The notes beneath the pieces are model-generated. The model was not told where the DNA came from. It did no database searches and was given only the letters and a program-made list of their open reading frames with translations. The position numbers and the translations under genes were made by a program. A DNA stretch of 64,000 nucleotides. Source: Aquificaceae bacterium. GTDB lineage: Bacteria; Aquificota; Aquificia; Aquificales; Aquificaceae. Below are positions 28,477 through 47,912 of this stretch, piece after piece (position 1 is the stretch's first letter; the number at the start of each line of letters is the position of its first letter). The DNA lies in NCBI GenBank assembly GCA_037481935.1, contig JBBFKQ010000002.1, positions 1 to 64,000 on the forward strand. Direction: 5' to 3'.

Positions 28477-28550
28477 CAACCAGAAGTCTACCGATGGTTT
28501 AACGAATTTTTAACAATTAACACCCATATTGGCTTAAAAGGAGGTGGGCT

Positions 28551-28694
28551 ATGATAGTTCAGGTTAGGGTGAAGTTACACAGAGGGGATGTGGAAGGTAT
28601 CATCAGAAGAGTTTTTATATGCCCCGCAACATCCAGTCGTAAAAAGGGCAGGGCTGCGATGTCACATATCAATTCTAAAAAATACAAAGCGTAA
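28551..28694 (+). CDS. Possible 47-aa basic protein
   Basis: A short frame with a very strong AAAGGAGGTG ribosome site. It begins MIVQVRVKLHRGDVEGIIRR and continues basic (SSRKKGRAAM) to KKYKA. It lies in the 323-bp gap between the DUF420 start (28463) and fasciclin (28787). I recognise no family; the opening strand-and-helix pattern could also be the remnant of a longer gene. The rest of the gap is A/T-rich and holds the DUF420 promoter. Confidence 0.4.
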   Translation: MIVQVRVKLHRGDVEGIIRRVFICPATSSRKKGRAAMSHINSKKYKA

Positions 28695-28786: not shown

Positions 28787-29302
28787 ATGCTAAGAACTGT
28801 TTTCTTCAAAAAGGCCCTTCTTGGCACTGCAGTTTTTTCCTTTGCCCTTGGGCTGGCTGTAGCCGGTATGCACGAAAAGGGCGGTCAAAAGGCAGCGGCA
28901 AAGCCTAACATAGTCCAGACTGCCCAGCAGGCAGGTCAGTTCAAGACCTTGCTCACAGCCCTCAAAGAGGCCGGTCTTGAGGAAACTCTGGCAACCAAGT
29001 GCTGTTTTACCGTCTTTGCACCCACCGACGAAGCCTTTGCTAAGGTGCCAAAGGACAAACTGGACGCCCTTCTCAAAGACAAGGAAGCTCTCAAAAAGGT
29101 CCTTCTCTATCATGTAGTTGAAGGCAAGGTCTACTCGAAAGACCTCAAAGACGGACAGAAGGTAAAGACCCTTCAGGGTCAGCAGGCAACCATAAGCCTT
29201 AAGGGCGGTCCAAAGATTGACAATGCCAACATAGTAAAGCCAGACATAGAAGCCTCCAACGGCGTCATTCATGTCATAGATACGGTCATAATGCCCAGGT
29301 GA
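28787..29302 (+). CDS. Secreted fasciclin (FAS1) domain protein
   Basis: A 171-aa exported protein. The signal peptide (about 1-26, ending AVA before GM) is followed by a single FAS1 domain. It shows the H1 motif [17 protein letters not shown], the [10 protein letters not shown] segment (H2) and the C-terminal [17 protein letters not shown]1 proteins act in adhesion or surface interaction. The ribosome site GGAGGTG fits the ATG at 28787. A Cys-Cys pair precedes FTVF, unusual and possibly a disulfide. Confidence 0.92.
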
Positions 29303-44832: not shown

Positions 44833-46791
44833 TCAGGCAAAAATGTCCCTTCCGTCCTTCCTCCAAACTGCTATGACAGAAGGCCTTGGAACCTGCACAT
44901 TGTCCCCGTAAGGCCATCTAGAGGAAGGCTGGTTGGGATTACTGCCACCCTCCGCCTCTCCCGGATGCTGTATTGCACAGAAGAAGGTCTTCCAGTCATC
45001 GGAAAACTCTGGACCACATATTTCACAGCCCGGAACCCCTGAGAGGAACATCTTAAATTCCTTGTTTATAGGATTAAGCACGTAAACGCCATCGTTTTTC
45101 CTTAGCCTCACTGAGCTTGGGTTTCCATCTGTGGCAATCCATACATTGCCAAGTCTATCTATAACAAAGTTGTCTGGTGCAGATATTGCAGGTGTTGAGG
45201 AGCTTGCAGGCTGACCGTATATCACAAGCCTGTTGTTCTGGTCGGAGGCGTTGGGGTCACCACACAGAACTGGTATATTCCATGTAAAGGTGACCGAGGC
45301 AGGATTGCCGTTTGCTTCCCTTATTTCCAGTATGTGTCCCATTACGTTGTTGGCTCTGGGGTTTGCCCTATCAACCCCTGGTTGCCCGCTTGCTCCTCTC
45401 CTTTCGTTGTATGTGAGCGCTACCCATGCACTTCTGGTCACTGGATTCCATTCTATGTCTTCTGGCCTGTCCATTTTCGTAGCTCCAAGGGCATCTGCAG
45501 CTGCTCTTGTATTTATGAAACACAGAACTGGGTCATTTTTGAAAGCGTCCGGCAGGCTTGAATTTGGAGTTATTCTAAAGCTCCCGTCAGCATTTCTTTC
45601 CACTCTGGCTATGAGAAGCCACTGCCCGCTCAGGTCGTCGTTGAATTTTGCCGCATATAAATCTCCTTCATCAAGTAATCCAAAGTTTGCTTCCCTGTTG
45701 TTTGGGTTAAAAGCACCCTTTGTTATGAACTTGTATATATACTCAAAGCGTTCATCATCACCCATGTAAAAAACCACCCTACCATCAGGTGCAATAGCGT
45801 AAGTAGCGGCTTCGTGTTTCATCCTGCCCAGGGCTGTTCTTTTTATCGGTGCTCTATTAGGATTAAAGGGGTCAACTTCTACAACCCATCCGAACCTGAA
45901 GGCCTCCCTGGGTTCTCTTTCTATGTTGAACCTTTCATGTCCATTCTTATAAAAGCCGTAGTAATCCGCGAAGGTGGATGGAACACCATATCTCCTATGT
46001 ATGCTCTTTATGAGGTCTGCATCCTCGCCAGTTATGTTGTCTCTATTTCCTCCAAAATAGCTGTGAAAGTTTTCTTCACAGGTCAGCACCGTTCCCCAGG
46101 GAGTTTTACCTGCGGCGCAGTTGTTCAGGGTTCCGAGGACGAAGGTTCCCTGGCTGTCATAAGAAGTTCTCATCAACCTGTGTCCTCTGGCGGGTCCGGA
46201 TATATCGCACCTTGTAGAACCAGTTATTCTTCTGTTGTAGGGGGAACCCTTTACATACTCCCAGCTGCCATCGCTTTTCCTTCTTATCTCCACAACCGAC
46301 AGCCCGTGGGCTTCCAGCATAAGGTTTGATTCCTCTCTGGTAGGTCTTCCTGCAGAGGGTGCGTTGTTGGTTATGAAGGGTTCGGGAAACATGAGTTCTG
46401 GATTGCAGTATTCATGATTTACCACAAGTATGTGCCTTCCATCTTGGGTTTTCAAATAGCCAACAAAGTCGCAGTTATAGCCAAAACAATTTCTCTGACG
46501 CTCCACGTCCTGTGCAGTTGGTCCACTCTGTCTTATCCTGTTCCAGTCAAGATTTGGCCCGCTATCCAGGGCATCTCCCCATCTTATAACCACATTATGG
46601 TTGAAGTCCTCAGGGAGAGTTATTCTGTCTTCGGTATTAGGCTGAATAGTTCTAAAGGTGAGAGGTTGGGTATCTCCACTACCTCCGCCACAGGAGAGTA
46701 GGGCAATGCCGGCACTACCATAAAGGGCACCTTTCAAAAGGTCCCTTCTGCTCATTGCTCTTGAAAGCACATCACCAAAGTATTCACTCAT
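44833..46791 (-). CDS. phoX: PhoX-type alkaline phosphatase (DUF839), Tat exported
   Basis: A 652-aa PhoX-family protein, a Ca/Fe-dependent phosphomonoesterase that frees phosphate in the periplasm. The Tat signal SRRDLLKG is at 14-21. C34 in ALLSCGGG could be a lipobox, so it may be a Tat lipoprotein. Family features include HEYCNPELMF, AHGLSVVEI, CEENFHSYFGG and DNFVIDRLGNVWIATDG. The gene has its own Pho-box promoter upstream and a terminator downstream. GGAGGT precedes the start. Confidence 0.92.
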   Translation of the reverse strand: MSEYFGDVLSRAMSRRDLLKGALYGSAGIALLSCGGGSGDTQPLTFRTIQPNTEDRITLPEDFNHNVVIRWGDALDSGPNLDWNRIRQSGPTAQDVERQRNCFGYNCDFVGYLKTQDGRHILVVNHEYCNPELMFPEPFITNNAPSAGRPTREESNLMLEAHGLSVVEIRRKSDGSWEYVKGSPYNRRITGSTRCDISGPARGHRLMRTSYDSQGTFVLGTLNNCAAGKTPWGTVLTCEENFHSYFGGNRDNITGEDADLIKSIHRRYGVPSTFADYYGFYKNGHERFNIEREPREAFRFGWVVEVDPFNPNRAPIKRTALGRMKHEAATYAIAPDGRVVFYMGDDERFEYIYKFITKGAFNPNNREANFGLLDEGDLYAAKFNDDLSGQWLLIARVERNADGSFRITPNSSLPDAFKNDPVLCFINTRAAADALGATKMDRPEDIEWNPVTRSAWVALTYNERRGASGQPGVDRANPRANNVMGHILEIREANGNPASVTFTWNIPVLCGDPNASDQNNRLVIYGQPASSSTPAISAPDNFVIDRLGNVWIATDGNPSSVRLRKNDGVYVLNPINKEFKMFLSGVPGCEICGPEFSDDWKTFFCAIQHPGEAEGGSNPNQPSSRWPYGDNVQVPRPSVIAVWRKDGRDIFA

Positions 46792-46836: not shown

Positions 46837-46875
46837 TGTTAAAAAACCTTTAAGGTTCTGTTAAGATTTTGTTAA
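46837..46875 (-). promoter_or_regulatory. Pho box of four 11-bp tandem repeats upstream of phoX
   Basis: On the - strand a TTAACA-type core occurs four times at exact 11-bp spacing (46875-46870, 46864-46859, 46853-46848 as TTAAAG, 46842-46837). This matches the direct-repeat sites of PhoB/PhoP regulators. The most upstream repeat overlaps the thiO stop codon (46874-46872). A possible -10 (TAATCT) follows about ten bases after the last repeat, where an activator replacing the -35 would need it. Confidence 0.85.
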
Positions 46876-47912
46876 GAGAATCTATTTGGTGAAAACACAC
46901 CTGTGAAATGTAAAACCCTGCCTCCTATGTATTCCTTGACGATGTTTGCAGTCAGAGGTGCATGAAGTATGCCGTTCCTGTGGTGCCCTGTGGCTACGAA
47001 ATAGCTCTCTCCAGCTTCAAATATTGGCTTTTCATCTGGTGTTGCTGGTCTGTAGCCATAGTGCATGTTCATAATCTGTGCCTGTGAGAGGGAAGGTGCC
47101 ACACGCACAGCACCTTCGGAAAGTCTGTTTAAGCCCTCAAGCGTGTTTCCACCCAGAAAGCCCACATCCTCTGAGGTGGCGCCCACATAGAGGTATCTTT
47201 TCCTGGGAATGAGGTAGGATATGGAGGAGTAGAGGACTTTTGGCAGCCCTGAACTTTTCAGTTTCATTCCCTGCCCCTTTATGGGATAGACTGGAAGGTC
47301 AAAAAGCTCTCTTGTCCAGGCACCCGTGGAGAACACGTAGAAGTCTCCCGTGTAATCGGATTTAAGACCCCTGAGCCTTTTAACTTCTCCCCCCTCTTTT
47401 ATAACTTCTGTAATTTCATCTATAACAAAATCAACCCCAAGCCTTCCCATGGCAGAGAGGAGGGCATCCATCAACATCTCCGCATCTACCCAAGCCTCCT
47501 CAGTGTAATTAATAAGAGTAATAACCTCTGTGGAGAGTTGGCTGGCTTCAGAAGGCTCTACAAACTCAACTCCATAGCCTGCTTCCCTGTATCCTTCAGC
47601 TAACTCCAGAAGTCCCTCTTCACCCTTCAGCACAACTCTGTATATACCTTCCTGCCAGAAGTCTACACTTTGTCCTGAGACTTCCTTCACGAGCCTGAGG
47701 AACTCGGGATATTCCTTCAGACTACCGTAAGAGAAATCAAAGAGGTCTCCCCGCAATCCTTCAGAAAAAGGTGCCAGCATGCCACCTGCCACCCAGGAGG
47801 CTGCCTCCTCTGGGTTTCTTGTTATGACCTGAACCTTGTGTCCCTCAAGGGCAAGAAGGAGGGCAGAGCTAAGACCTATCACGCCACTTCCAACCACGAT
47901 GATTTTTCTCAT
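46872..47912 (-). CDS. thiO: Glycine oxidase (FAD-dependent amino acid oxidase)
   Basis: ThiO-like, 346 aa, D-amino-acid-oxidase fold. It opens KIIVVGSGVIGLSSALLLAL (FAD) and has AASWVAGGMLAPFSE, PVYPIKGQGMKL and the C-terminal GYRPATPDEKPIF plus TGHHRNGILHAPLTA. ThiO makes iminoglycine for the thiazole of thiamin. No other thi gene lies next to it. It is divergent from the 144-aa unknown gene with 19 bp between starts. Confidence 0.9.
   Translation of the reverse strand: MRKIIVVGSGVIGLSSALLLALEGHKVQVITRNPEEAASWVAGGMLAPFSEGLRGDLFDFSYGSLKEYPEFLRLVKEVSGQSVDFWQEGIYRVVLKGEEGLLELAEGYREAGYGVEFVEPSEASQLSTEVITLINYTEEAWVDAEMLMDALLSAMGRLGVDFVIDEITEVIKEGGEVKRLRGLKSDYTGDFYVFSTGAWTRELFDLPVYPIKGQGMKLKSSGLPKVLYSSISYLIPRKRYLYVGATSEDVGFLGGNTLEGLNRLSEGAVRVAPSLSQAQIMNMHYGYRPATPDEKPIFEAGESYFVATGHHRNGILHAPLTANIVKEYIGGRVLHFTGVFSPNRFS

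Follow-up and report, generated by a model that had tools for sequence, protein, structure and literature searches.

In the window, that is, the whole stretch of 64,000 nucleotides under analysis from a deep-branching, thermophilic member of Aquificaceae, the alkaline phosphatase gene phoX is preceded by a direct repeat which is highly likely to be a functional Pho box with an activator-dependent promoter for phoX; from its sequence, it very probably acts as a genuine phosphate-starvation switch. The minus strand at 46876-46837 reads CTTAACAaaatCTTAACAgaacCTTAAAGgtttTTTAACA and contains four units with an exact 11-bp period, followed by a predicted -10 hexamer, a Shine-Dalgarno-like sequence and the phoX start codon, in that order. 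The features of the locus are as follows (gene calls are simple ORF calls, and gene starts are estimated):

46872-47912, minus strand: gene for a thiO-like glycine oxidase, the 3' end of which holds the box
46876-46870, minus strand: unit 1, CTTAACA, then spacer aaat
46874-46872, minus strand: thiO stop codon TAA, within unit 1
46865-46859, minus strand: unit 2, CTTAACA, then spacer gaac
46854-46848, minus strand: unit 3, CTTAAAG, then spacer gttt
46843-46837, minus strand: unit 4, TTTAACA, the last unit of the box
46827-46822, minus strand: predicted -10 hexamer TAATCT, 9 nt after unit 4
46803-46798, minus strand: Shine-Dalgarno-like GGAGGT of phoX, read from the sequence
44833-46791, minus strand: phoX, encoding a PhoX-family alkaline phosphatase of 652 aa, predicted to be Tat-exported and probably a lipoprotein; its ATG at 46791 lies 45 bp downstream of the box

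An earlier note on this DNA had described a four-repeat Pho box with TTAACA-type cores at 46837-46875, the first repeat overlapping the thiO stop codon. These coordinates are borne out, the initial C of unit 1 extending the box by one base (46876). All four units are indeed in the 11-bp register on the minus strand, and the stop codon does sit inside unit 1. The TTAACA core holds for three units; the third is degenerate, TTAAAG, and CTTAAAG is often found as the third unit among four-unit boxes. With tandem direct repeats, an 11-bp period and a core of the Pho type, as compared with published boxes (PMC1906773), the element satisfies the definition of a Pho box at the sequence level.

The identification of phoX in the earlier note was also correct. 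The product matches the PhoX domain PF05787 over its full length (481.7 bits, cut-off 24) and is a true homolog of the Pseudomonas PhoX of solved structure (PDB 3ZWU), with which it aligns over nearly the full length (376 bits), retaining the active-site segments TCEEN, GRxKHE, YMGDDER, and MDRPE. The leader SRRDLLKGALYGSAGIALLSCGG carries a twin-arginine motif (SRRDLLK), a hydrophobic stretch and a probable lipobox ALLSC-G, all recognized by visual inspection, which for the motif and the stretch included related sequences; therefore, the protein is likely a Tat-exported lipoprotein. In this probable trait, as well as in its length and its Aquificaceae lineage, it differs from the Pseudomonas enzyme. 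Placement of the DNA in Aquificaceae is supported by the nearest named relatives of this phoX. The upstream gene, co-directional with phoX and 80 bp away, contains a PF01266 domain and scores 246.4 bits against the ThiO model TIGR02352, just below the cut-off of 250.8; hence its assignment as thiO is probable rather than certain.

In core and spacing, the phoX box is closest to the box of cyanobacterial SphR, and it can be regarded as a further example of a known Pho-box type. The SphR box has the consensus CTTAACCT and consists of 8-bp direct repeats with a 3-bp linker (PMC1906773). Common traits are the CTTAAC core, the 11-bp period, the multiple tandem units, and the position before pst and phosphatase genes, whereas the Aquificaceae boxes mostly comprise two or four clean units, do not have a fixed T as the eighth base, have the -10 element at a fixed distance of 9 nt, and come from another phylum. 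The PhoB box of E. coli is likewise formed by 8-bp repeats with a 3-bp linker, upstream of a -10 element TAN3T/A at 10 bp (PMC1906773). It resembles the Aquificaceae box in the 11-bp period, the replacement of the -35 element by the box, and the -10 element close downstream; moreover, a candidate regulator with a recognition helix nearly identical to that of E. coli PhoB is encoded in the genome (see below). However, the Aquificaceae core is CTTAACA, not of the CTGTCA type, and the regulator and kinase genes do not form a phoBR operon. The PhoP box of Bacillus subtilis is made of TTAACA-type repeats with a spacing of about 5 bp, looser than in the Aquificaceae box. The hexamer and the approximate spacing are thus alike, whereas the candidate Aquificaceae regulator is nearer to PhoB models.

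The genome was scanned by pattern searches, each with a reversed-pattern control. The three-unit pattern yielded 10 matches (none in the control), the two-unit pattern 20 (two in the control), and two units followed by a -10 element, with at most two mismatches, 11 (one in the control). Boxes of the same design, all with the -10 element at 9 nt, were found at eleven genes or operons:

window 46876-46837, minus strand: phoX
C2:90912: pstSCAB
C11:16554: phoU and a kinase gene
C1:41264: phoD, a second Tat-type phosphatase
C2:74365: DUF2334/glycosyltransferase/PsiE operon C2:74427-78866 (L073:1928-6367); four units, the third CTTAAAG, as in phoX
C2:78851: ORF of 68 aa
C2:82970, minus strand: P-type ATPase operon C2:79949-82946 (L073:7450-10447)
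C2:86483: cluster of a Ras/MglA-type GTPase and an EAL-GGDEF protein, C2:86537-90941 (L073:14038-18442)
C1:211034, minus strand: secreted protein of 214 aa, C1:210343-210987 (L083:4344-4988); three units
C1:184507: arsenate-reductase-like low-molecular-weight phosphatase, C1:184538-184993 (L082:2039-2494)
C2:215631: DUF302 protein

The box is thus common to the pst, phoU and phosphatase genes of the genome. The earlier note had proposed that a scan for the repeat should bring up other Pho genes and named pstS, phoU, and phoR; pstS and phoU do carry the box, whereas the best candidate for PhoR has no box linked to it, and that for PhoB is an orphan regulator. The repeat common to pstSCAB, phoU, phoD, and phoX strongly supports the reading of the element as a Pho box, and together with the constant spacing it would unite these genes, the kinase gene next to phoU, and several other operons in one regulon. 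The DUF2334 operon encodes, in addition to the DUF2334 protein, a 748-aa GT4 glycosyltransferase with a PHP-like N-terminus, a 371-aa GT4 protein, and a PsiE-family protein scoring at the margin of the family cut-off; lying under a four-unit box, it is a candidate for glycolipid synthesis in phosphate starvation. The P-type ATPase operon includes three small genes, and its box coincides in part with the 3' end of a CZB-domain gene. The GTPase cluster, which also contains small unknown proteins, extends from its own Pho box to that of pstS. No Pfam match was found for the 214-aa secreted protein, possibly a phosphate-starvation protein. As arsenate is a phosphate mimic, phosphate control of the arsenate-reductase-like gene would make sense.

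Several matches were set aside. Those at C1:236674, C3:187709, C4:160084, C8:83730, and C6:95934 are probably due to chance (they have two mismatches and lie for the most part within genes or in an unrelated context), as is C3:111077 before ilvB, which lacks the -10 element at 9 nt. A perfect two-unit box with a -10 element, conserved in the genus, lies antisense to the iscU start (C2:109310-109327, minus strand; L074:17310-17327); it was rejected as probably not a Pho site, its spacer being the Shine-Dalgarno sequence of iscU (GGAGGTG backwards).

Four OmpR-type regulators are encoded in the genome. Only for one of them (C8:43532-44203) is PhoB the best-scoring NCBIfam model, and its PhoB score is the highest of the four (236 bits, under the equivalog cut-off of 296.2). 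E. coli PhoB accounts for the top three PDB entries matched by its DNA-binding domain, and the recognition helix, DRTVDVHIKKLREKL, is nearly identical in the two proteins. This orphan PhoB candidate is likely the activator acting at the box. When phosphate is limiting, the phosphorylated regulator would occupy the 11-bp direct repeats in head-to-tail order along one side of the double helix. In this position it would substitute for the -35 element and direct RNA polymerase to the -10 hexamer, which begins 9 nt after the box, with phoX then transcribed independently of thiO, whose last codons contain the box. The role of PhoR is likely played by an orphan kinase (C3:192712-193698, 328 aa, 281.7 bits against a cut-off of 334.2), the sequence of which is without an obvious membrane segment; in nine of nine genomes of a related family, its relatives are encoded in the same orientation as phoU and 13-49 bp downstream of it. 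In the genome under study, phoU is followed by a different kinase, an NtrY-like protein with HAMP and HisKA domains (C11:17274-19001; L076:2775-4502), and this type of kinase is kept behind phoU throughout the genus and in most of the family; it could be the signaling partner in place of the C3 kinase. Besides this second kinase, it counts against the Pho reading that both the PhoB and the PhoR candidates score under the curated cut-offs, and that some of the box targets have no known link to phosphate.

Alternatively, the box could be bound by another regulator of the OmpR/PhoB family with a repeat of about 11 bp (encoded in C5, C3, or by the second such gene in C8) and serve another signal, e.g., metals or envelope stress. 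Eleven-bp direct repeats are common to this regulator family, of which the genome has four members, and the P-type ATPase, arsC-like, and DUF302 targets would suit metal or stress responses. Nevertheless, such an assignment seems improbable, as pstSCAB, phoU, phoX, and phoD are found together among the targets, the remaining three regulators reach lower scores with PhoB models and have a different recognition helix, and the C5 regulator gene lies upstream of a kinase gene of its own and a SCO1-like gene, as would be expected of a metal regulator.

In a survey of 926 genomes from 2026, PhoP as well as PhoR went undetected in 228 genomes of taxa including Aquificales (PMC13170248). Its authors cautioned that their procedure favored genes in clusters with phoU or pst, and that divergent or unclustered homologs might escape (PMC13170248); the genome considered here is a case of this kind. 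No described Aquificales Pho regulon was found in the titles and abstracts searched, subscription papers being outside the search. On the PhoB reading of the box, a lineage surveyed as lacking PhoP/PhoR probably has a complete phosphate switch of the ordinary type. The sites are sequence evidence that at least one genus of Aquificaceae runs a PhoB-type phosphate response, and point to its regulator, its likely kinase, and about ten target operons; moreover, the exact promoter layout (repeat, 9 nt, -10) could be used for annotation in this poorly studied group of thermophiles. A broader proposal, for and against which we would argue with about equal conviction, is that Aquificaceae have a complete Pho system missed by synteny-biased surveys, with the genes for PhoB and a soluble-looking PhoR dispersed in the genome, apart from pst and phoU, and with a regulon reaching beyond phosphate uptake to the glycosyltransferase operon (which could swap phospholipids for glycolipids), the arsenate-reductase-like gene, and the Ras/MglA-type GTPase with the EAL/GGDEF protein beside pstS.

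The promoter layout is fixed. The box takes the place of the -35 element, and TANNNT starts exactly 9 nt past the last unit in 12 of the 14 candidate sites of the genome (the eleven listed above and the rejected iscU-antisense match), the two others being the ilvB site and a weak site of the window at 28498. This spacing is not built into the result, since the searches that first turned up several of these sites did not include a -10 element, and it is the position expected of an activator replacing the -35 element, as for E. coli PhoB. The offset of 9 also occurs in 19 of 24 upstream regions of phoX and phoU in relatives, which were chosen by protein similarity, not by motif. Matches to the composite pattern outnumbered those to the reversed control in 14 genomes of the genus (127 vs. 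3), in other genera of the family (34 vs. 2), and in other families of the order (30 vs. 3). The box is conserved upstream of both phoX and phoU in relatives; in most members of the genus that have phoX, the units before it keep the 11-bp register and the flanks differ. Distant PhoX homologs from other phyla (L016-L045) were also considered; repeats of this kind were not found in the upstream regions inspected, a subset of L016-L032. A metagenome-assembled genome titled "Acidobacteria bacterium" (RFFP01000022.1) contains a phoX 77% identical to that of the window in the same thiO-Pho box-phoX layout; therefore, its label is probably wrong and it probably belongs to Aquificaceae.

The same comparison bears on the proposal that the repeats are simply the 3' end of thiO, kept by coding constraint or as a transcript end signal, and that phoX is read through from thiO with no promoter of its own. 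The overlap of the box with the end of thiO and the short distance between the co-directional genes would fit this. Of 13 thiO-phoX pairs, 8 have the TAA of thiO within an in-register unit, and two more have it within an out-of-register CTTAAAG. In two relatives (L144 and L152), the stop codon of thiO lies farther off, at 318 and 345 bp, yet the box remains with phoX and does not follow thiO; therefore, the box belongs to phoX, and its embedding in thiO is an economical overlap. As, moreover, a -10 element at the fixed spacing and a Shine-Dalgarno sequence come after the box, and the same box precedes unrelated genes, read-through from thiO is very improbable as the explanation.

The array is far beyond chance. 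It matches four CTTAACA units at 11 bp in 25 of 28 core positions, whereas the best match in 60 first-order Markov simulations of 128 kb each was 20 of 28. A position weight matrix built from 62 sites of other genomes, recognized phoX sites being left out, gave 32.2 bits for 46876-46859, the top site of the window; the runner-up had 20.8 bits, and no simulation exceeded 14.8. Although the units are rich in A and T, and TTAA often occurs where genes stop, an accidental array in an AT-rich junction between genes is hardly conceivable given these simulations, the matrix from other genomes, the reversed-pattern controls, the conservation, and the G+C content of the window (48%, hence not AT-rich). 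The runner-up, a weaker second box TTTAACGaattTTTAACA at 28498-28515 (plus strand) without TANNNT at 9 nt, precedes a short ORF, with its start at 28552, and a gene for a fasciclin-like secreted protein (28787-29302).
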